A stretch of 40,340 nucleotides of DNA. Source: a virus. This document shows positions 4,329 through 40,340 of the stretch, one piece after another. The notes beneath the pieces were generated by a model. The model searched no databases. It was not told the DNA's origin and saw only the letters and a list, made by a program, of their open reading frames with translations. The translations under genes were made by a program, and so were the position numbers. Every line of letters starts with the position of its first letter. The stretch's first letter is position 1. The stretch lies in the IMG/VR virus record IMGVR_UViG_3300036768_000229, positions 1-40,340 of that record. One strand, given 5' to 3'.

Positions 4329-6531
4329 TGATCACCTCTCGTATGACTTCACGCATCTCGTCATTCATTTTCTTTCGATCCCATGGAGATGGAACAGATT
4401 CAAATTTTCTCTGATCCATTATAGTGATTGATCTACCAGCAAGAGCATTCAGCAAGGATTCTTGGGTCAAAGAACCTCCGATGACTTTTTCTGCAGCTCT
4501 TGTAGTTGAGTGACTCATCACGAACTCTATTCCTTCCTCACCTGTTCGGATCAAACCACTTGCGTATCCCCCTCGTGCGTATCCTCTAGAACGAATATCA
4601 TAAGGATTCGTATAAGTTACACCAGATGAAGAAGATGTCGTAGAATTCGGAGCCGGAGTTCCTCCAAGATCACGAATAATAGCTTCATATTGTTCTCGTT
4701 TGAGACGTCTTTCAGCATCTAGAGCACGTTGTAATTCAAGCAATTCTAACGACTTTGCCTGTCTTAATTGTGCTAGTTCAGCCAAATAAGAATTTCTCAA
4801 TTCAGACATTGATTGTGCACGTTGACGTGATATTTCCTTGCGTTGTTCAAGAAAGGCTCTCTCGCGTTCGATTCTTTCCTGTTGATGTCTTCGAGAGAGT
4901 TCTTGAAGTCGAAGTGCTGTTTCTTCTTTTTCACGAGCAATAGTCTCATTGATAGACTGTTCAGCCTGAGATTTTTCTTCAGCAAATCTTCGTTGTTCTT
5001 TGATTAGACCTAACGCATCTCTTGAAGCAACTAAATCTGCAACTCTCTGATTATGATCTTTCGTAAGCTGGACCATTGCTTTTTGATGATCGCGTTCGAT
5101 ATCCTGAATTTTCGTAGAACTCTCACGAATAATACTAGCACGTTCTTGCTCGTAAGCTTCTTCAGCACGAGCAACTTCTACAGCATAGTTCTGGAGAAGA
5201 GTTTTAAGCTGACTATCAAACTGAGAGGAGACCTGAGACTGTTGTGAACGATAATTCGCAATCAGCTGATTCTCTTTTTGTTGATAAGCTGCAACGATCA
5301 TCAAACGTTTCTGATAAGCATCCTCAACGAGCTTACGATCTTCACGCTGCCATTCAAGAGTAGATTTTTCAACATCAGATAATGCTTCTGAGGCTTTCTT
5401 TACAGCTTCAGTCACTTTTTGCCACAGGGGGTGGTTTTCATCCATAGCTCCTGTAAGTTTTCCTACAAGAGCAACAAAAACTTCCGATTTATGTCGAGCT
5501 TCTTCAGCAGGAGTTCCGAATTTGATTGCAACTTCTTCAAAGACCTTTGAGAGCTTGAGAGCTCCAACAGTCAAAAACTGTGCGGTCGTTGCTCCTTTTC
5601 CAGTAGCCTTTACGATTGCATCATTGACAGCAGCACCAACTGTAACTCCTCCTGCTATAGCAAGACCTGTACCTAAAGCAGTGGCTCCTCCTGCAGCTGT
5701 TAGAAGCCCACCCTTCTGGAGTAAACCTAAAAAACCTCCTTTCTGCATTAATCCAGCAGCAATGAGTTGATCTTTAGCTGCTTTACTCATTGTAACGGAG
5801 GCTAATAATTGTTGTGATGACGCTAGAATCAATTTGGCATCAGCCACAAGTCTGATTCCTCTGCTGATCCCACTACCTAGTATTCCGATAAGTGTTAGAG
5901 CAACCCCGGCTCCAAAAAGAGTCTTAGCAGCTTCAGGATTCGCTTGAGCGATCCTTGAAATAATTTCCATGACTTGAGCCACTTTCTGATAGATCGGAAG
6001 AACAGTCTGAGCAGCGATCCTTCCGATCTCTTGTTGTGACTTCTCAAGCTCCTTAGAAGTAGCCAACCACTTTTTAGAGATTGCATCCGACTTATCAGCT
6101 GATCCAATATATTTGAATGCTGCTGCTACGAATCCTCCCGTAATAGCTCCACCAAGAATTGTAAATGCACGAGAATACTTTTGGGCCCTCTCAGAAAGTT
6201 GATTGAGTATTTGTGCTTCAGATTTAAGTTCTTTTTGTCGGGTTCTAATCTCTTCAGTACTTCTCTCAAGAAGAGATAACTGCTCGCGCATCTGATTAAT
6301 AAACAAATCAGCCGCTTGATCTTCTGTAAGACCCTTCTGAATAGATTCACTGAAAGTTTGACCGAGTTTGATCCCCCTTTTCTTAAATTCAGCTTCAAGG
6401 AGCTTCAAATAACCAGTAAGATCTCCAGAAGGTGAAGTAACTTTCGAGATCTGTTCAGAAGCAGCACGGGCTTGAGCAGGATCAACTTTTATCCCAAGAA
6501 TCAGCTGAAGTCTTTTCTCTGCGTTTTCCAT
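4315..6531 (-). CDS. Tail tape measure protein
   Basis: This 738-aa protein is the longest helical protein in the genome. Residues about 125-330 hold several hydrophobic helices, including Gly/Ala-rich segments that are typical of tape measures. Residues about 385-620 are a long charged coiled coil rich in Gln, Glu and Arg. The C-terminus has a glycine-rich stretch (SRGYARGGYASGLIRTGEEG) followed by EFVMSHSTTR, which resembles the common tape-measure ending with a GE-G-x-EFV motif. It directly follows the frameshifted chaperone pair and overlaps it by 50 nt. If length scales at about 1.5 angstrom per residue, the tail would be near 110 nm; that is a rule of thumb. It sets tail length and may be ejected with DNA. 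Confidence 0.9.
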   Translation of the reverse strand: MENAEKRLQLILGIKVDPAQARAASEQISKVTSPSGDLTGYLKLLEAEFKKRGIKLGQTFSESIQKGLTEDQAADLFINQMREQLSLLERSTEEIRTRQKELKSEAQILNQLSERAQKYSRAFTILGGAITGGFVAAAFKYIGSADKSDAISKKWLATSKELEKSQQEIGRIAAQTVLPIYQKVAQVMEIISRIAQANPEAAKTLFGAGVALTLIGILGSGISRGIRLVADAKLILASSQQLLASVTMSKAAKDQLIAAGLMQKGGFLGLLQKGGLLTAAGGATALGTGLAIAGGVTVGAAVNDAIVKATGKGATTAQFLTVGALKLSKVFEEVAIKFGTPAEEARHKSEVFVALVGKLTGAMDENHPLWQKVTEAVKKASEALSDVEKSTLEWQREDRKLVEDAYQKRLMIVAAYQQKENQLIANYRSQQSQVSSQFDSQLKTLLQNYAVEVARAEEAYEQERASIIRESSTKIQDIERDHQKAMVQLTKDHNQRVADLVASRDALGLIKEQRRFAEEKSQAEQSINETIAREKEETALRLQELSRRHQQERIERERAFLEQRKEISRQRAQSMSELRNSYLAELAQLRQAKSLELLELQRALDAERRLKREQYEAIIRDLGGTPAPNSTTSSSSGVTYTNPYDIRSRGYARGGYASGLIRTGEEGIEFVMSHSTTRAAEKVIGGSLTQESLLNALAGRSITIMDQRKFESVPSPWDRKKMNDEMREVIREVINGRI

Positions 6532-7068
6532 TTTCTAAGATTCCGAATAAGTGTTCGATCTCCAGAACTGCCTTCCAGGGTTCTTCTGGTTCTAGAAGAA
6601 GTTCACTGAGAAGATGTCTCTTTTCAGTTGATCTCCAAAGAGCCCAGAGAGGGTACCATTTCTCGAAGCTTTCTTTTGTGAGGTCAATCGTATCAGGGAA
6701 ATCTCCTTCTTCTTCCTTATCTAGAAGAGACGCCAGCCTAGAATGAACCTCATCAGCTACTTGCTGTCTTTTTTTTGGTCCTGTTCGATAGTGAACCAAT
6801 GAGGGTTCAATGCCTCAGCTTCAGCTACCCAAGCTTCGACTTCTTGGTCAGGAAGTTGAAGAAAGTCAGTATAAGAACCCTGATAGTCAGAACATGCCTT
6901 AAGAGACGGAAATAAGAAGGTCCTTGTATAGTGAAGCATCTGATCTGAGAGCTTCTCAGGAAATGGACCAGCTTCAGCCAGACCTTCTGCCATGAGAGCT
7001 GCCCTTTGGATTCCATCCAAATAGGTAGCTCTCCTAACCGTAATTTTCTTTTTCTTAGTCTGGGTCAT
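6482..7068 (-). CDS. Tail assembly chaperone G-T fusion made by -1 frameshift
   Basis: The upstream frame (7068-6757) and the downstream frame (ending 6482) overlap, and an A8 run on the coding strand (6769-6776) lies just before the upstream stop. Reading CAA AAA AAA GAC in frame 0, a -1 slip on A-AAA-AAA continues as AGA CAG CAA and enters the downstream frame, giving a protein of about 195 aa. The downstream frame has no ATG upstream of its conserved part; its only early start is a TTG at 6799 without a ribosome site. This matches lambda G/GT-type tail chaperones, which sit just before the tape measure. The slip efficiency cannot be read from sequence. Confidence 0.8.
6757..7068 (-). CDS. 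Tail assembly chaperone, G-like short form
   Basis: A 103-aa protein starting MTQTKKKKITVRRATYLDG. I prefer the ATG at 7068 because GGAG lies six bases upstream; a start at 7089 would extend into the tail-tube gene without a ribosome site. It overlaps that gene by 14 nt. Its size, its position between tail tube and tape measure, and the slippery A8 run near its 3' end identify it as the short form of the G/GT chaperone pair. These proteins coat the tape measure during tail assembly and are absent from the finished virion. Confidence 0.8.
   Translation of the reverse strand: MTQTKKKKITVRRATYLDGIQRAALMAEGLAEAGPFPEKLSDQMLHYTRTFLFPSLKACSDYQGSYTDFLQLPDQEVEAWVAEAEALNPHWFTIEQDQKKDSK
6769..6776 (-). 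other. Slippery A8 site for -1 ribosomal frameshift
   Basis: The coding strand reads ACCAAAAAAAAGACAGC. In the zero frame this is CAA AAA AAA GAC, which contains the heptamer A-AAA-AAA. The upstream frame stops at 6757-6759, four codons downstream, and the shifted frame is open for about 95 codons. The heptamer fits the X-XXY-YYZ rule. A stimulating downstream structure was not evaluated. Confidence 0.8.
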
Positions 7069-11082: not shown

Positions 11083-12135
11083 TTACCTCTCTATGATGTC
11101 AATTACGTATCTTGATCCATCGGGATATTGAATTTCGATCCCAGGATCATTCGTTAAATAACCAGCTTCTCGAGAACTACGAATCTTAAGACCTTTAGAC
11201 CATTTACCCTCCTTGAGAAAATGAAGGAGTTCGTTTTCTACATCACGTGGACTGATGGTACCCCTTGATGAAGTAGTCTCTCTGACAGTAAATTGGAATT
11301 CTGTGTTAGTCTCTGGATTCCGATAAACTACTCCTCGGTCATTTGTTAAATAACCACCCTCTTCATAACTTATAACATCGCCTTGAAGATTGGGCCCCTC
11401 ATCAGTAGGATCATCAAAGTAAGAGAGCATCATCTCTTCGAAGTCATCTCCAGAAGTTGGCTCATCAAAATCATCTTTCAGAGTAGGTTCATCAAAATCT
11501 TCATCGGACTCATCAAAGTCATCTTCTTCACCCCCATGAACCGATTGGGGGCTTCCACTGGGATGATTTCCAGGGCCTAAGTGTTTTTGAAGACTTAAAT
11601 TTTCAGTATCTTTAGTACCAAGATCCTCTGAATTTTCCTGATTATATTTTTCCAGAGGAATACTTACTCCATCTGCTTTTACAAGAGTAATCACTGAATC
11701 AGGATTCTGGGGATAATCTGCTAAAGAAATCTCTGAAGGAATAGCCTCGTATCTTCGATAAGGACCATCAGCCCAAGTCTTTCCGTAGGTTCCTCCGATC
11801 GAATAGCCTGTATAAACTCCCTTAAGGACCTTCTTCCATTCTTGATCATCAACCACTTCAGACGTAACAATGATAAGTTTATTAAGATCGTCAAATTGAA
11901 TATCACGAATTTTCCCTGCAGCAATATTCGAATGCATTGAACGAAGATTCCCGTAAGATTTTCCGCCAGACTTCTCAAAGATAGTCTGAGACCACTTTAT
12001 GAAATGAGGCTTTGAAGCTTCATAATCCATGATCTCATAAGAAGAATCAGGTGTCTCACTCGTAGCAACTCCCGTAATCAATCGACGACTTTCATCTATT
12101 TTCTGAAGATCAACATGGAATTGAAATTTTTTCAT
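11083..12135 (-). CDS. Prohead protease, S78-like, with C-terminal extension
   Basis: A 350-aa protein. Residues 1-155 resemble the S78/XkdF-type prohead protease: ITGVATSETPD near 20, the likely catalytic His68 in NLRSMHSN, AAGKI, the likely Ser112 in VYTGYSIGG, and EISLADYPQNP near 135. The remainder is unusual. Residues 184-201 carry an HLGPGNHP-type motif shared with the MuF-like protein. Residues 205-240 are acidic DFDE repeats. Two copies of GYLTND (261 and 325) follow, in a pair of related C-terminal segments. The protease would cut scaffold and capsid during maturation, and the tail could be a cargo or an autoprocessed scaffold part. The protease call is by motif; the tail function is unknown. 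Confidence 0.75.
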   Translation of the reverse strand: MKKFQFHVDLQKIDESRRLITGVATSETPDSSYEIMDYEASKPHFIKWSQTIFEKSGGKSYGNLRSMHSNIAAGKIRDIQFDDLNKLIIVTSEVVDDQEWKKVLKGVYTGYSIGGTYGKTWADGPYRRYEAIPSEISLADYPQNPDSVITLVKADGVSIPLEKYNQENSEDLGTKDTENLSLQKHLGPGNHPSGSPQSVHGGEEDDFDESDEDFDEPTLKDDFDEPTSGDDFEEMMLSYFDDPTDEGPNLQGDVISYEEGGYLTNDRGVVYRNPETNTEFQFTVRETTSSRGTISPRDVENELLHFLKEGKWSKGLKIRSSREAGYLTNDPGIEIQYPDGSRYVIDIIER

Positions 12136-12762: not shown

Positions 12763-13527
12763 CTATTCCACTATACAGAATCGAGCCAGATATAATGGAC
12801 CATAATTCGAAGACCAATAATCGGGGGACCAAACTGGGTGATAAATTACACCTCGAGGGCTCTTATTGATCCTATTGTTCCCAAAGGCTTCAGTGGCTTG
12901 TTGAAGGTATGCATTTTCCAGAAGCCACTCTACAGGATATTTCGAGAGATCCATCATCTCAGGTCTAAACCCATCTACTTCGAGAAATTCGACTTCTTCA
13001 GTGACCCATCTATCACCATCTAGATATTGGGTCAAGAATCTCTTAATCTTCAAAGATCCATCATCATTTGTTTTGACACGAATCTTCGAATGACCAAAAA
13101 CCATTGTTCCAAAACGAAATTGAATCCAGTTTTGATTCCACTTACCACCAATTGTCCAGTAAGGCCTCGAAGGCGGATTATTCGTAGCATCACCAATCAA
13201 CCAGTTCATTTTCTGATCTAAAGTAAATCCCCACTGTTTCTGATCATCTGGTTGAATAGACATTAGATAGTTAAGACAATCACGATTCAGAGTCTGAAAT
13301 TTCGTTACAGCACCCCAGTTTGGTGAATGAACTCCTCCAGATCTTAGACCCTCAGATGCCCAAAAATCAACATGATCAAAGTTATCTTTTGTGATAGTCG
13401 TATCAAGACCCATTCTTCGAATCATGATGGGATCACCATAACCTCGAGTCTCGACTATTCTCGAATGATGATCTACATGGATCTGAATTCTAGAGATTTG
13501 CTTTGGTGAGTAAATCTGAATCTTCAC
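12763..13527 (-). CDS. Unknown 254-aa late protein
   Basis: I do not recognise this protein. It starts with GTG at 13527, overlapping the lysin stop as GTGA, with GAGG four bases upstream. The sequence is rich in Trp, Tyr and Asn (for example WSPDYWSSNYGPLYLARFC at the end), has no membrane segment, and reads like a beta-rich secreted or virion protein. The tight coupling to the lysin suggests a joint role, such as a wall-binding accessory or a virion-associated protein, but this is context only. Confidence 0.7.
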   Translation of the reverse strand: MKIQIYSPKQISRIQIHVDHHSRIVETRGYGDPIMIRRMGLDTTITKDNFDHVDFWASEGLRSGGVHSPNWGAVTKFQTLNRDCLNYLMSIQPDDQKQWGFTLDQKMNWLIGDATNNPPSRPYWTIGGKWNQNWIQFRFGTMVFGHSKIRVKTNDDGSLKIKRFLTQYLDGDRWVTEEVEFLEVDGFRPEMMDLSKYPVEWLLENAYLQQATEAFGNNRINKSPRGVIYHPVWSPDYWSSNYGPLYLARFCIVE

Positions 13528-15167
13528 TTGACCTCTATGATTCCAGAACCAGTAAGTCCATTATCATCTATAATCGTGACTGTCACAGAATATCCCTTCG
13601 GAGTTGGAACTTCAGGTTGAGAAATAACCTGATAATAGGCTCGCCCACCAAGAATATAGTTTAGGTAGGTTCCATCAGGTAGTTTGAACCACTGATCCTG
13701 AGGAATAGATTTTCCAGGAACAATCTCAACAAATTCGATCGTCGAATATGCTGGAATGCGTTTTTGAGTATCATTTCCTGAAAGAACCTCGGGTGAAGAA
13801 CGTACTGTACCTATCTTTCCAAGAATCTCTTTAGCCTTCCCTGTCGACATCGTATTATCTCCTTTCGTGTATGCTAGAATAGTCATAACAACTGAACGTT
13901 CAATACCATCACTAGGATGATTCTGAACAACACCATTGAGTACCTCAACTGAAGATCCTCCGCTATCATGATCAAAAGCTGTAACGCATTCGAACTCTCG
14001 AAGTACTTTATAAACTTCTAAGAGTGTCATCCCCCGATTCGAAGAACTTCGACCATCACAAGTAAAACACATGACATTTCCGTGTGAATCAAGACCTTTG
14101 GCACTTCGAGGATGTAACTCCGTAACATATTCATCATCTCCATAATTAAGAGGAAAAGATCCATTTAACATAATGTATCTAAATCCACTAAAAACCTGAG
14201 TTCCAGTAGAGCCCTCATGAAAAATTTTAGCCCCTTGAAGATCGAAAGAAGGCTTAGACGTCTTTCTAGGTACAATAACCTTTCCATTGCTGATTGCTAA
14301 ATCTAGAGGCTTATGTGGAGGAGGAAGTCTAGTATCCCACCCATCACCGTTCCAGGCCATTTGAGCATTTCGTTCTTGACTAACACGAGAGGGCTTTGCT
14401 AGATTTTCGAAACAGAGAACCTCAAAACGAACTTGAGCCGGATCCAAGATAGTCAGATAAAAATTGGAACCATAACGACGACCAGTAATTCTTTTGACTC
14501 CGGGAAAGGGAAATGTAATGGAATCCTGAGTTGTTTCACCGAGATAAGTCAACAGATCAGGATGAATCCAATTAAGATCCACTCTTTCTTTGATACCCTT
14601 GAGTAAACCTTGATCAGTATACTGCCAGAGCCAGACTGGGCCATATTTCGTTTGATCTGGAATATATGATGAGTGAACTTCTGTATAAAGATCCGGATTG
14701 GCTGGATAACCTGCTGTCCAGATCGGGAATCTTTTGAAAAAAGCCTTCTGATCTGTCGTCATTGGAATCGGATCAAGGATCCTCTTTGATGAATAGATCA
14801 TGATCAAATTTCGAGGATATTGTCTTTCGACTTCAATCAACCAGGCTTGAAGCTGATCTGCAGACTCACCGCCTTCTTCAACATCAAGAACTAATATCGT
14901 CTGATCATCAACGTGAAGACGAATCGTTTCACAGAAGAACTTAGCTTGATCAAGCCCCTTATAGAGTTTTCGATGAAAGTGATAACATCCACGATGGATT
15001 TTATTCTTCTTGAGATCACCCATGTATTTCGTGAAAGTTGAATCCACGAATGTCAGACCCTCTGTAGCTTTTGTTAGAACTAGAATCGGCTGAGGCTCAA
15101 CGAGAGCAAAATCTGGGATAGTCTCCCAATGGCTTACGTCAATAACTACGGGTTGTTTAATGATCAT
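13524..15167 (-). CDS. Two-domain lysin: GH25 muramidase + phosphodiester glycosidase + SH3-like
   Basis: A 547-aa protein with no signal peptide. Residues 4-205 form a GH25 muramidase: VVIDVSHWE with Asp10, KATEGLTF near 33, CYHFHRK near 61, LDVEE with Asp95 and Glu97, then WTAGYP and WLWQYTDQG. Residues about 222-435 match the NAGPA-type phosphodiester glycosidase fold: VMCFTCDGR with DGR at 371, GMTLLEV, DHDSGGSS at 399 (usually LDGGGSS) and NHPSDGIERSV near 416. Residues about 450-515 look like a bacterial SH3 wall-binding domain. It would cut glycan strands and perhaps wall-polymer phosphodiester bonds. It overlaps the MuF-like gene and sits among head genes, so a virion-associated role is possible. 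Confidence 0.8.
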   Translation of the reverse strand: MIIKQPVVIDVSHWETIPDFALVEPQPILVLTKATEGLTFVDSTFTKYMGDLKKNKIHRGCYHFHRKLYKGLDQAKFFCETIRLHVDDQTILVLDVEEGGESADQLQAWLIEVERQYPRNLIMIYSSKRILDPIPMTTDQKAFFKRFPIWTAGYPANPDLYTEVHSSYIPDQTKYGPVWLWQYTDQGLLKGIKERVDLNWIHPDLLTYLGETTQDSITFPFPGVKRITGRRYGSNFYLTILDPAQVRFEVLCFENLAKPSRVSQERNAQMAWNGDGWDTRLPPPHKPLDLAISNGKVIVPRKTSKPSFDLQGAKIFHEGSTGTQVFSGFRYIMLNGSFPLNYGDDEYVTELHPRSAKGLDSHGNVMCFTCDGRSSSNRGMTLLEVYKVLREFECVTAFDHDSGGSSVEVLNGVVQNHPSDGIERSVVMTILAYTKGDNTMSTGKAKEILGKIGTVRSSPEVLSGNDTQKRIPAYSTIEFVEIVPGKSIPQDQWFKLPDGTYLNYILGGRAYYQVISQPEVPTPKGYSVTVTIIDDNGLTGSGIIEVK

Positions 15168-16294
15168 AATGTTGTCTCCACTTGAGATTCACTGATTGGA
15201 TCATCAATGAAGACGCGGGTCCCAGCAGGCATTCCACGCTTCTTAAGAAGATCCAGTGCACTATAGATATTACGATAGGCCCGTTCATTGGCCTTTTCAC
15301 GATCGGGATCTCCCATGACATCGACTGCAGCATAAAGTGTTGAAACTTTGATTCCATCATCAGTTACATAAAATCGGATCCAGGAATCTACAGTATCATT
15401 TGGATCCACTTTTTCAACAAGTTTTGAGTGAAGCATATATCCTGCTGAAGCAATGATTCTCTTTTTACCCCGAAGATCAACCATAAAAGTAGAATCAGTT
15501 CCTAAATCTAGAATCGCACCAGCATTATCGAAAACTTCAAAGACTTCAGTAGGCTTAAGAAAGTCTCCAAAACTAGCTGTGGTTCTTCCAAGACTTTTCC
15601 ATTTACCGTGTATAGATTGAGGAGTCCCATTGGGATGATTCCCGGGACCCAGATGTTTTCGAAAATGCGAATCATTAGTTCTGGGAAGATGTTTAGTGAG
15701 ATTTACTACTGGAGTTACCCAACAGCGATCTCCAACATGAGCATCTGGGGGTTTGATGATGGGTTCACCCTTCTTATTGTAGCCGAAGGGCTCTCCGATT
15801 CGAACGATCTTTCCATCCAGAGGAGCACAAATCTCACAGACACCTCTTCTTTTACCTTCAATAACCATCTCATCACGATTAGTATTCCATCGCCAGTATT
15901 CGACCCCATTTGAAGTAAACTGTTCTTGAGCAGCTGAAGCAAAAGCACGTGTTGTTTCGGTTACAGCAATTCTAGAGGCTCTATCACGATCAAAGAGTTT
16001 TAAGAGAGAAGAATGAAGATCGCCCATGTCCTGTGTAGGAGAAGCAATCCAATCAGCAATGATCTGACCCACACCTTCAATTGTAGTCTCCATCAACTGA
16101 GAGAGTAAAGTATCTGTGTGCTCGTTAGCCCAACGAATCGCAGACTCATTGGCTTTCTCCCAGCTAAGAGTAACTCCGATATCTGCACTCGATAGAAGAG
16201 CTCCCGCAAGATAGATAGCTTGAAGTTTAGGCTTGATAACTGCCAACAGTATTCGAGATTCATTTTGCCAAAAGTTTTCAGAAAGAGTGTTCAT
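15164..16294 (-). CDS. MuF-like minor head protein with C-terminal extension
   Basis: A 376-aa protein directly after the portal, coupled by ATGA. Residues about 100-200 fit the Mu gpF-type domain: RASRIAVTETTRAFASAAQE, WNTNRDE, CEICAPLDGKIV with Cys153 and Cys156, and PPDAHVGDRCW with His186 and Cys191, a likely zinc site. Residues 213-230 hold an HLGPGNHP-type motif also found in the protease. The C-terminal 145 residues are a separate domain that I cannot assign (FMVDLRGKKRIIA near 268, then RVFIDDPISES at the end). In other phages the region after MuF often carries effector or enzymatic domains. Inside the capsid it may be injected. Confidence 0.8.
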   Translation of the reverse strand: MNTLSENFWQNESRILLAVIKPKLQAIYLAGALLSSADIGVTLSWEKANESAIRWANEHTDTLLSQLMETTIEGVGQIIADWIASPTQDMGDLHSSLLKLFDRDRASRIAVTETTRAFASAAQEQFTSNGVEYWRWNTNRDEMVIEGKRRGVCEICAPLDGKIVRIGEPFGYNKKGEPIIKPPDAHVGDRCWVTPVVNLTKHLPRTNDSHFRKHLGPGNHPNGTPQSIHGKWKSLGRTTASFGDFLKPTEVFEVFDNAGAILDLGTDSTFMVDLRGKKRIIASAGYMLHSKLVEKVDPNDTVDSWIRFYVTDDGIKVSTLYAAVDVMGDPDREKANERAYRNIYSALDLLKKRGMPAGTRVFIDDPISESQVETTL

Positions 16295-36695: not shown

Positions 36696-37121
36696 TTGAG
36701 TAAAGGGCGAGATCATGCAGCAGCTAGTCTAGGTTTAGGTCTAGTCTCAATCTTTTATTCAGAAAGTTGGTGGGATCTTCCTTTCTATATTTTTGGGTCT
36801 TTGATCAGTCTTTTCATTACTCCTGATTTAGATCAGGGTAATAGTTATTATGGGGGAAGAATCATCAGGAATTTCAGCCCCATTCTTTATTGGATCTGGA
36901 TGAAGTATTGGTGGTTGTATTCTAGACTGATCCCGCACCGTTCTTGGATAAGTCATGCTCCATTACTGGGGACAGTTCTCAGAGTCTTATATATAACTTG
37001 GCCCCTTCTAATTATTTCACCTGAACTTTTTCTAAGGATCTTCTGGTCGAAGAGTTTTTGGCAACTTGTTTACTGTGATATAGTTCACTGGGCAATGGAC
37101 TTTTATGATCCAGATATTTAA
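36696..37121 (+). CDS. DUF2227-like membrane-associated metal-binding protein
   Basis: A 141-aa protein, starting at TTG (36696) with AAAGGG upstream; no in-frame ATG is near. It contains the DUF2227 signature: GRDHAAA near 4, SLFITPDLDQG (Asp44, Asp46) and PHRSWISHAPLLGT (His81, His87), with hydrophobic segments on both sides. DUF2227 is a putative metal-dependent membrane hydrolase group of unknown substrate, related in pattern to YdjM-type proteins. The 3' end overlaps the convergent LexA-like gene by 110 nt. Function is unknown; host-membrane activity is conceivable. Confidence 0.7.
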   Translation: MSKGRDHAAASLGLGLVSIFYSESWWDLPFYIFGSLISLFITPDLDQGNSYYGGRIIRNFSPILYWIWMKYWWLYSRLIPHRSWISHAPLLGTVLRVLYITWPLLIISPELFLRIFWSKSFWQLVYCDIVHWAMDFYDPDI

Positions 37122-37335
37122 TTCCCCTTGAAAGACCCTTGATTCTTTTAATGTATCCGAGTCTTTCTAGTTTTCTAAGATGATAAGTAACTACAGAAGT
37201 CGAACTGATCTTGAAGTGTTTTTGGATCTCTCTAATCGTTGGTGGTAAGTATTCTTTTAAGAGTTTATTCTTAATAAAAATTAGTATTTTGAGCTCTAAC
37301 TGACTTGCAATTAGTTTGCTGGATACTTGCTTCAT
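37012..37335 (-). CDS. LexA-type DNA-binding domain protein without peptidase
   Basis: 107 aa. Residues about 8-73 match the LexA winged helix: LELKILIFIKNKL, then YLPPTIREIQKHFKIS, SSTSVVTYHLRKLERLGYIK and SRGIKYL. The S24 peptidase half is absent, so it would bind DNA without RecA-controlled self-cleavage. The tail (about 74-107) is antisense to the end of the DUF2227 gene. It lies downstream of the hairpin that ends the lysis cassette and has only a weak ribosome site. It may repress phage operons or host SOS genes. Without the full LexA protein its SOS link is uncertain. Confidence 0.7.
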   Translation of the reverse strand: MKQVSSKLIASQLELKILIFIKNKLLKEYLPPTIREIQKHFKISSTSVVTYHLRKLERLGYIKRIKGLSRGIKYLDHKSPLPSELYHSKQVAKNSSTRRSLEKVQVK

Positions 37336-37385: not shown

Positions 37386-37757
37386 TTACTTGGGTGGGTA
37401 AAGTTCAGGCATTAGACGCTGACTAAAGTATTGACGAACTTTGATGATCAATGCTCTATAAATTACAATGGCCATTCCTAAGATCGAACTAATCCAAGTG
37501 GCCACTGATAAGAGGAAATTCGAATAGAGCTGAAGATCTACTGATGGATCCCCAATCGGAATAGGGAGCTGAGGGAATGCTTGGGGGAACCACAGAAGTG
37601 AGAGTACGATCGAGATACCTGCCACGATGATGAGCGAAATCCATGAAGGAATCATGATCTTTCTCTTCTGAGCGAATTCATAGATCATTCTGAATAGCGC
37701 AGTCAAGAAAGATCCGAGGACTGAAATTACAATGAGTTGTTCAGGATGAAGTTCCAT
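37386..37757 (-). CDS. Holin-like membrane protein, three TM segments
   Basis: 123 aa with a strong ribosome site (AAGGAG then AAAAATG). Hydrophobic stretches at about 7-27, 35-57 and 82-106 suggest three membrane spans, with a basic C-terminus (RALIIKVRQYFSQRLMPEL). This layout and the position after the tail genes fit a class-I-like holin that would let the lysin reach the wall. It ends next to the hairpin at 37345. The call is by topology; no specific family is recognised. Confidence 0.6.
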   Translation of the reverse strand: MELHPEQLIVISVLGSFLTALFRMIYEFAQKRKIMIPSWISLIIVAGISIVLSLLWFPQAFPQLPIPIGDPSVDLQLYSNFLLSVATWISSILGMAIVIYRALIIKVRQYFSQRLMPELYPPK

Positions 37758-37765
37758 TTTTCTCC

Positions 37766-37918
37766 TTATGGTAATTTCTCATTGATGAGGCTGAATGTGT
37801 TGCCGATCTTTTCTCCGAGAAGACTAAATACGGCAATCACAACGATGGCGACGAGTGCGAGAATGATTGCATACTCGACAAGGCCTTGACCTTTTTCTTG
37901 TGGTGTAAATAACATCAT
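37766..37918 (-). CDS. Flp-pilin-like 50-aa membrane protein
   Basis: A short gene: ATG at 37918 (overlapping the previous stop as ATGA) or at 37915, AAGGAG just upstream, TAA at 37766-37768. The protein starts MMLFTPQEKGQGLVEYAIIL and continues as a hydrophobic segment to about residue 35, then EKIGNTFSLINEKLP. GQGLVEY fits the type IVb (Flp/Tad) prepilin site: cleavage after Gly10, Glu at +5 and Tyr at +6. It lies between a coiled-coil membrane protein and the holin-like gene. It might be a pilin mimic, a host-derived pilin or a small holin. Confidence 0.7.
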   Translation of the reverse strand: MMLFTPQEKGQGLVEYAIILALVAIVVIAVFSLLGEKIGNTFSLINEKLP

Positions 37919-38292
37919 GTCTCCTTATCTGTTTTACGTAATCGGATACTTCTATCAACGAGAATCGAGATATTCTTTCCCATCGAAGAAAGATCCGTCT
38001 CTATTCTATCCAATCTTTGATCTAAGTCTAATCCTACTTTCTTGAAATAATCGTGATCAGTCTCTAAAATAATTAATGCTTTTGCAATTTGTTCTTGTGC
38101 AACTACAGCACGTTCTTCAATATCTAACCTCTTCTCTAAAAGTTCAAGTTCTTTTTCCTGATTAAGTCTCTTCTGCTTGGCTTTTTCAGGAATGACAATT
38201 TCGAGAATTTTAGCTACGGTAGGCGCAAACTCTTTGATCAGGATATATGCAAGAAAAAAATACGGAGAAGCTTCAATCAATGTATTTTCCAT
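37915..38292 (-). CDS. Membrane-anchored coiled-coil protein (lysis cassette)
   Basis: 125 aa with one N-terminal hydrophobic segment (about 10-34; PYFFLAYILIKEFAPTVAKI) followed by a charged coiled coil (about 40-110; EKELELLEKRLDIEERAVVA). The topology resembles an i-spanin or an antiholin-type anchor, but there is no lipobox partner nearby, and it would fit other membrane roles. It starts 3 nt after the tail-fibre stop and overlaps the pilin-like gene by 4 nt. Confidence 0.55.
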   Translation of the reverse strand: MENTLIEASPYFFLAYILIKEFAPTVAKILEIVIPEKAKQKRLNQEKELELLEKRLDIEERAVVAQEQIAKALIILETDHDYFKKVGLDLDQRLDRIETDLSSMGKNISILVDRSIRLRKTDKET

Positions 38293-38294
38293 AG

Positions 38295-40340
38295 TTATAA
38301 ATAAGCTGAAACTGCTCTGAGAATTGTTGCACCAGTGGCTCCCTGAACTTGGAGACTCGATGCTGAACTTGTTAGAGTGCTAATCAACAAGTAATACTTT
38401 GTTTTACTTGAAATACTAATAATTTTAGGAAGAACTGAAATTCGTTGTGTTAAAACGATGCTATTCGATGAAACATCCCCTCTAGCATTCATGCTTGCAG
38501 CTCCAGTCAGTTCTGTATCAGATTCTGAGGAAGATGATGTTGAAAGAGTCAGATTGACTCTTGCAAATACTGAAGTCTCAGGAGCTGCGATTCTTCCGAT
38601 AGCAGAATACACCAAAGACCAAGCCCCAATAGGAACATCTATTGTAGGAAGAGAACCGGTATCCATGACTGAATACCACGTCGAAGCTGCCGGTGATGTT
38701 TTTGTATAAGTAGTCGTATTGGTTACCTGAACAGACCACTTGGTAGGTAATAACGGGAATCCAACCGGAGCTTTCATAGATGAATAACTAAAAGATAGAA
38801 TCGGAAATAGATTGGTATCTTCTACTATATAGTCAGTACCACAGTATAGAGTAAGGTTTGTATTAGATCCACTTACTGAAATCCCAGTAATGATCCCATA
38901 ACGAATAGTCGAGTTTTGTGTCCATCTTACTTTCATTCCGGGACTGAGTCTATCTGAGAGATCAACTCCAGAGAATCTAATTGTATAAGTCGGAGCATCA
39001 ACGCTTAGACGTGTTGGTAAGACAGTTGAATAATTCACCCAACCCGACAGTATCTCTTGTAATGCCGATTCTACATTTGTTGCTGTGAGATATCCCTGAG
39101 AATCATCTACCTGAATTGAGCTTGCCTTCTCAATATCATTTCCATTGACAAGGAGTTTATTGAGACCAGCATCAACTTTGAGAACAACTCCAGTGGTGCC
39201 CTCAACAGAAAAATCCATGTCTTGATTAGCTTCATTGAAAATCACATTCGGATTTGAAGCACTGCGAATCGGAATGTAATGATCTCCACCAATCTCCAGT
39301 CTTTTATCGAGATTATCGACATTCAAAACAGTCGTAATACTCGGTAAGCCAAAAAATGAAATCTGATTCCCTGCAGTTCGATAGAGATCTGTTCCCATGA
39401 TGATAGAAAGGGCCTCAGCAGGAGTCAATGCGCGAACTTCTCCAGAAGTATATCTTCCAAGAATTGAAGAAAGAGGAACATTGGTATTAATCCACTGAGT
39501 AGAATTTCGAATCAGGATATCACCTTGAGTTACTGAGATGAGATCAACATCATTCAAATCTCCGAGTGAAGAAGCTCCTCCTTCTTGTAGACTCACAGGA
39601 AAGGTCACTGTAAAAGGACTCTGGATTGAGAAAAGAGAAGCCGCATTCTTTTGAACAATGATCTTTCCTACAAGAATAGCATAAGCTGAAAGAAGCACTG
39701 GAAGTTCAGTTGGAGGAGTCGCTTTTTCAGCTTCAGAAAGTAGATAATCCCCTTGACCATAAACTACATGAACACTCCCATCATGAACAACATAAACCCA
39801 ATGAACTCCGTAATGACCAACTGTAAGATTATTCAGAGTACCAGTCCCGTCATCCCAGTTCGTATTATTGATCTGAGTTTGTGAAGGAACTGGTGTCCAT
39901 CCTCCAGTGGATCTATACCAATAAGTAAAAGTTCCAGCAGATGAAGAATCAAAAGCTGGAATACTGAAACGATGAACGAGCTCAACCCAAATGACTCCAG
40001 CTGTAATTGAAATATGACGATTCCCAGATTCAGAGATCATCAAACCCTGGGCTCTTTCTATTGAAAATCTCTCCATTCCGAACATCTGGATTCTTCGATC
40101 GAAGTTCCAACGATCAGTTCCACTCTGACGAATCAGAATTTGAGAACCGTCATAGTAAACTCGTCCGATTATGAAATCAGAAGTGAAGTCAAAGACCGAT
40201 GGAAAGTTCTCTATTAAGACTACAACAAAATTTTCTCCACTAGCATCCCAAAAAATGATATTATCTCCAACTCCAGATAGACTAACATCAGTGAGATTAT
40301 TCCAGGAAACTAATTTTAGATGACTACCCTGACCGTTGTT
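38295..40340 (-). CDS. Tail fibre / adsorption protein, C-terminal part (cut by window edge)
   Basis: The frame is open from the right edge (40340) to the TAA ending at 38295. On the circle it continues the frame that starts at 976; the whole protein is about 964 aa. Apparent internal starts such as 40085 (MFGME) are not needed. The sequence is beta-rich with Ser, Thr and Gly, and near the C-terminal third has TNVESALQEI, a phrase common in tail fibres that precedes host-recognition domains. The last 300 residues may be the receptor-binding end. The start of the physical gene is in the feature at 1-976. Confidence 0.75.
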   Translation of the reverse strand, partial: NNGQGSHLKLVSWNNLTDVSLSGVGDNIIFWDASGENFVVVLIENFPSVFDFTSDFIIGRVYYDGSQILIRQSGTDRWNFDRRIQMFGMERFSIERAQGLMISESGNRHISITAGVIWVELVHRFSIPAFDSSSAGTFTYWYRSTGGWTPVPSQTQINNTNWDDGTGTLNNLTVGHYGVHWVYVVHDGSVHVVYGQGDYLLSEAEKATPPTELPVLLSAYAILVGKIIVQKNAASLFSIQSPFTVTFPVSLQEGGASSLGDLNDVDLISVTQGDILIRNSTQWINTNVPLSSILGRYTSGEVRALTPAEALSIIMGTDLYRTAGNQISFFGLPSITTVLNVDNLDKRLEIGGDHYIPIRSASNPNVIFNEANQDMDFSVEGTTGVVLKVDAGLNKLLVNGNDIEKASSIQVDDSQGYLTATNVESALQEILSGWVNYSTVLPTRLSVDAPTYTIRFSGVDLSDRLSPGMKVRWTQNSTIRYGIITGISVSGSNTNLTLYCGTDYIVEDTNLFPILSFSYSSMKAPVGFPLLPTKWSVQVTNTTTYTKTSPAASTWYSVMDTGSLPTIDVPIGAWSLVYSAIGRIAAPETSVFARVNLTLSTSSSSESDTELTGAASMNARGDVSSNSIVLTQRISVLPKIISISSKTKYYLLISTLTSSASSLQVQGATGATILRAVSAYL
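40214..40340. repeat. Right copy of 127-bp terminal overlap
   Basis: This is the second copy of the sequence at 1-127. Removing one copy gives a circle of about 40,213 bp and restores one continuous tail-fibre gene across the joint. It marks circularity or circular permutation of the assembly and does not locate the packaged ends of the virion DNA. Confidence 0.95.

Follow-up and report, generated by a model that had tools for sequence, protein, structure and literature searches.

The window analysed here, the whole 40,340-nucleotide stretch of IMG/VR record IMGVR_UViG_3300036768_000229, carries a 127-bp direct repeat that is identical at its two ends (1-127 and 40214-40340), so that it represents a complete phage genome. 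The same terminal repeat, together with phage genes on both sides, rules out host contamination of the viral bin for this window. Read on the minus strand across the end junction, the gene order is tail genes, tail fibre, a 125-aa protein, a pilin, a three-helix protein and a winged-helix regulator. The tail fibre gene (38295..40085, minus strand; PHROG 5668, tail fiber, E 2.8e-15) lies directly upstream, in the same late gene run as the 125-aa gene and the pilin, and the regulator, of the LexA DNA-binding type (37012..37335, minus strand; Pfam LexA_DNA_bind, E 1.6e-13), follows the three-helix gene as the last of this minus-strand run. The 125-aa protein (37915..38292, minus strand, from ORF reading), whose stop overlaps the pilin start, begins with a mildly hydrophobic stretch and ends in a charged tail of coiled-coil-like character, and none of its hydropathy segments rises above the transmembrane threshold applied. 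Genes of similar build, not demonstrably homologous to it, are found near the pilin in L104, L108, L019 and L013, and the 125-aa protein shows no BLASTP similarity to its L104 counterpart. An endolysin-like protein, in which a phosphodiester glycosidase (NAGPA) domain comes after a GH25 domain, is encoded far from the three-helix gene, at 13524-15167. Elsewhere in the window, 11083-12135 and 15164-16294 encode different proteins that have in common the peptide KHLGPGNHP(S/N)G(S/T)PQS(V/I)HG.

The pilin gene occupies 37766..37918 on the minus strand, and the full ORF encodes 50 aa (MMLFTPQEKGQGLVEYAIILALVAIVVIAVFSLLGEKIGNTFSLINEKLP). A Shine-Dalgarno sequence, AAGGAG (37921..37926, minus strand), stands 2 nt from the first ATG and 5 nt from the second (37913-37915), and on this spacing the second ATG is the better start. 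The product would then be 49 aa long and begin with MLFTPQEKG, nearly the same as the host-pilin leader MLFAPKEKG. This short, charged leader is predicted to be removed at G(-1)/Q(+1) (MLFTPQEKG/QGLVEY, with E+5 and Y+6), which would leave a mature pilin of 40 aa (QGLVEYAIILALVAIVVIAVFSLLGEKIGNTFSLINEKLP) in which a strongly hydrophobic helix (mean hydropathy 3.09) follows the cleavage site. The prepilin-type site in GQGLVEY and the hydrophobic stretch, which the first-pass annotation had pointed out in the 50-aa ORF, are thus real, as is the tight coupling that it described on both sides: the TGA of the upstream gene overlaps the pilin start, while the downstream gene begins 8 nt past the pilin stop with its own AAGGAG (37762..37767, minus strand), which overlaps that stop. 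The pilin gene is therefore translationally coupled within the late genes, and its base composition is that of the genome (41.8% vs 41.2%).

The Pfam family Flp_Fap (PF04964) matches the window pilin at E 5.1e-7 and 29.8 bits, where the curated cut-off is 32.2. In five Anaerolineales genomes (G001-G005), the matches to this family score 27-34 bits, 10 of the 15 (27-32 bits) fall short of the cut-off and in three of these genomes nothing exceeds it, implying that the cut-off is too strict in this group. The PDB matches of the window pilin are Tad pilins only (8u2b/8u1k), and in the alignment Q(+1) falls at the mature N-terminus, with E+5 and Y+6 in register with the Caulobacter Tad pilin. Taken with more than 80% identity to pilins of Tad loci, these matches bear out the proposed Flp/Tad-type prepilin and identify the ORF, as far as homology can tell, as a genuine Flp (Tad, type IVb) prepilin and no look-alike. 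In common with other Flp/Fap pilins (PF04964; PDB 8u2b, 8ucr, 8u1k), it has the length, the short Gly-ended leader, E+5 and Y+6, a single hydrophobic helix and a short C-terminal tail; unlike them, it sits among phage late genes with no other recognised Tad gene nearby, and some phage copies are fused to a three-helix membrane domain. The window gene thus belongs to the Flp family but occupies a setting new to it. The HMM and PDB matches and the homology to host pilins rule out a chance resemblance. A pinholin or small membrane peptide that merely looks like a pilin, which had been offered as one explanation, would account for a single hydrophobic helix within a late gene cluster; yet the homology is direct, with the HMM and PDB matches and a full-length identity above 80% to Tad-locus pilins, and the viral homologues keep Gly(-1) (22 of 24 full-length domains) and Glu+5 (all 24), so that we consider it very unlikely indeed. 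The outcome proposed in advance as fatal to the pilin reading, with no Flp match and homologues only among phage holins, was not what the HMM search returned.

In the genome-contig scan, the top matches of the window pilin were from Anaerolineales (Chloroflexota), at 80-84% identity. Three of these relatives (L022, L024 and L025, 81-83% identical) precede cpaB-like, cpaE/tadZ-like and tadA-like genes, as read from the ORFs rather than from HMMs. The closest host pilin (L027) is 85% identical over the aligned core and the closest viral pilin 73%, and on this difference the window pilin looks like a fairly recent capture from the Anaerolineales group. The Chloroflexota resemblance suggested in the first-pass annotation therefore holds, the closest relatives being Anaerolineales pilins at 80-85% identity, and we conclude from the sequence relationships that the gene was captured from an Anaerolineales-like host. 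Of 60 Anaerolineae genomes, 52 encode a prepilin peptidase of family A24. Searches of 396 Anaerolineae genomes for prophages with three-helix domains gave weak or broken matches only, and one Anaerolineae genome has a related terminase on a contig that carries no pilin. In the contig L026, a host membrane protein ORF (6695-7036) has a C-terminus that copies the C-terminal part of the pilin (SVMRLLGPKIGNTFSSISS); this chimera candidate lies about 0.5 kb from an intact pilin and looks like a recombination product.

Scans of IMG/VR with pilin queries yielded 25 distinct viral Flp domains, the window included. Tyr+6 is kept in 23 of the 24 full-length domains, and wherever dS could be estimated (dN ~0.15-0.32; dS ~1 to 2.7, near saturation) dN/dS is roughly 0.1-0.25, which indicates purifying selection on the pilin. 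In a tree of 129 pilins, built on 41 sites and with many open forks, at least five label changes are needed to satisfy the well-supported branches, a sign of capture or exchange on repeated occasions; L016, L019, L015 and L104 group in a viral clade (support 99/92) that is nested within the Anaerolineales pilins. A PHROGs search with the pilin gave no match, nor did tblastn in 50,697 cultured phages, which for this pilin excludes only close relatives, since in a local control low-complexity filtering lowered the sensitivity of tblastn for it. Among 43 IMG/VR loci that share the window's tail protein, several of them too short to tell, three carry the pilin: L150 (= L003), L173 (= L013) and L109. 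This makes the pilin an accessory gene and rules it out as a fixed gene of the phage lineage. Stand-alone pilins also occur inside the tail module (L004 and L109) and near the terminase (L002, L126 and L005).

The residue before the cleavage site varies in a few copies. In L013 (~6001-6147) and L014 (~745-891), whose pilins are identical, a stand-alone phage pilin has TGA at the Gly(-1) codon (MLFTPKEK*QGLVEYAL...), which has the look of a nonsense mutation at precisely the residue before the cut; a genome-wide code in which TGA means Gly is ruled out for L013, where the long ORFs alongside run uninterrupted in the standard bacterial code. Gly(-1) is replaced by Ala in L012 and L015, and, with the TGA, this suggests that some lineages manage without standard processing. 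The L012 product (5998-6129) is an Flp-like peptide of 43 aa that all but lacks a leader (MAQSLVEYAL), and its gene overlaps the beginning of one for a coiled-coil-like protein that has a C-terminal helix.

The three-helix partner of the window pilin (37386..37757, minus strand; 123 aa) has hydropathy segments at residues 8-26, 39-57 and 81-99 and a basic C-terminal tail, and thus the size and topology of a holin: small, with three segments and a charged C-terminus. No holin family claims it, however, with Phage_holin_3_1 at E 0.015, below the cut-off, and PHROG 126 (holin) at E 0.18, and across the three-helix domains as a whole Pfam and PHROG gave no assignment to a holin family. The partner resembles the lambda S-type holins of Phage_holin_3_1 in size, predicted helices and position near the late genes, but this sub-threshold match is no sequence evidence of membership. 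Because the partner matches no holin family, the lysis cassette named in the first-pass annotation stays putative; no family model backs that term or 'holin-like', and the GH25 endolysin is encoded elsewhere. We know of no holin of which a pilin domain is part. A 424-aa protein beside the three-helix gene of L226 was considered as an endolysin and dropped, as it has no family match.

What ties the pilin to its partner is that the two occur as one protein in other phages. In L104, a single 180-aa ORF encodes three predicted helices and, after them, an Flp domain in full; none of the 27 codons that lead up to the cleavage site is a start codon, and the N-terminal domain is 34% identical to the window partner over 114 aa (BLASTP E 2e-13 / 6e-14). 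Altogether there are four different phage fusions with Flp C-terminal to a three-helix domain (L104, L016, L019 and L108), the L016 fusion being identical in L017 and L018; in the L019 fusion an internal ATG leaves room for a separate pilin start, and the long frame of L015 may be a chance extension. The architecture is found in 4 of the 25 viral pilins and in none of 105 distinct host pilins, as judged by helices upstream in frame. By BLASTP, the three-helix domains form at least three mutually dissimilar groups, and that of L016 has stand-alone homologues: L219, 56% identical over ~100 residues, ends just past the third helix and has no pilin. In the window the pilin precedes the three-helix gene, whereas in the fusions the three-helix domain precedes the pilin, which suggests more than one origin for the association and, in turn, supports a functional pairing. 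The AlphaFold model of the L104 fusion has four helices, and with a pLDDT of 53 and a pTM of 0.26 is too poor for a fold search; hydropathy and charge predict that the segment between helix three and Flp is cytoplasmic in the fusions. Since L104 fuses the pilin to a homologue of the very protein that is its neighbour in the window, and no host pilin is so fused, pilin and partner are the unit to be explained, and the two probably act together late in infection. Flp domains are also joined to soluble segments in L008, L009 and L123; related ORFs in L008 (5569-6132) and L009 (3379-3939) place the Flp domain after a common ~140-aa soluble segment and are possibly another kind of pilin fusion.

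The placement of the pilin beside a three-helix protein suggests that these phages use the host pilus machinery late in infection, and we favour, at a probability of roughly 40%, interference with the Tad pilus by the captured pilin and its partner as the putative outcome, ahead of lysis control. It can be envisioned that the Flp prepilin, kept at the end of the late operon to work with its three-helix membrane partner, inserts with its leader in the cytoplasm and is cut after the Gly by the host prepilin peptidase; in type IV pilins, these peptidases cut on the cytoplasmic side. The phage pilin would then enter the host Tad pilus machine in competition with the host pilin, and a flood of it, with the partner beside or fused to it, would jam or remodel the pilus late in infection, such that pilus-dependent phages, or the phage's own progeny, would no longer adsorb to the dying cell. 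Here the host Tad pilus is presumed to be a phage receptor. That the cleavage site and the entire pilin are kept, rather than a hydrophobic stretch alone, argues that the host peptidase and the host pilin machinery are the targets. The conservation extends to the C-terminal part, which an inert membrane anchor would not need, and this points to contacts with host pilins or the machine that handles them.

A late position next to tail fibre and holin-like genes suits a role in lysis no less than one in superinfection control. It is possible, though on balance somewhat unlikely, that the locus is a lysis module, with the three-helix protein acting as the holin and the Flp peptide as its partner or regulator: in the fusions, cleavage by the host prepilin peptidase would release the holin from the pilin and so couple lysis to a host enzyme, while in the window pilin and holin would be made separately and meet in the membrane. 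The three helices, the size within the holin range and the place at the end of the late genes speak for this, as do the similarly placed coiled-coil-like membrane genes, the L013 pilin directly upstream of a GH25 endolysin and a cleavage site that predicted topology puts in the cytoplasm of the fusions, and fusion to at least three dissimilar three-helix domains points to selection for the pairing itself. The three-helix domains nevertheless match no holin family, the pilin genes of L004 and L109 lie inside the tail module without a three-helix partner, and conservation of the full-length pilin exceeds what a lysis helix would need. We regard as rather doubtful the broader proposal of a new pilin and three-helix module that would enlist the host's prepilin peptidase and Tad machinery for lysis or release, cleavage in the fusions switching a holin-like protein.

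Two further explanations would leave the pilin outside the phage cycle. As a conversion gene, it would supply a working extra pilin that alters host adhesion or surface and be mere cargo; sporadic presence, repeated capture and near identity to host pilins are in keeping with this, and in two Vibrio harveyi prophages Flp pilins have been recorded among the putative virulence genes (PMC12482185). The pilin is, however, translationally coupled within late genes, an unsystematic look at the window's ORF list revealed no integrase, and cargo would hardly be expected to be fused to phage membrane proteins, all of which makes a conversion gene improbable. That the gene is a recent passenger, captured from the host and functionless, seems less probable still: the window copy is nearer to the host (0.85) than to any viral copy (0.73) and L013 and L014 bear a nonsense codon, but capture recurs, dN/dS is low across the viral copies, the ribosome-binding site is good and the base composition is the genome's.

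Phages are known to block pili by way of motors or regulators. The reviewed phage proteins that obstruct type IV pili act on the PilB motor or on expression (PMC11436027), and for Gp05 of Pseudomonas phage D3112 and Aqs1 of DMS3 the outcome, loss of the pilus receptor, is also the one proposed here; these proteins inactivate PilB, though, and none is described as a pilin mimic (PMC11436027). The Vibrio harveyi phi345 and phiGANI1709 are likewise tailed prophages with a Flp-family gene, named a putative virulence factor, and the accessible part of that source describes no partner, fusion or link to lysis (PMC12482185). The open-access literature on phage-encoded pilins or a pilin-holin link held nothing further of relevance, which is no proof of absence, and no searchable paper appears to describe phages that use a captured pilin or fuse it to membrane proteins of their own. 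If the phage pilin is processed by the host, a host secretion enzyme would be linked to the end of the phage cycle. The phage pilin sequence may, moreover, serve as a tag that links uncultured phages with hosts in the Chloroflexota.
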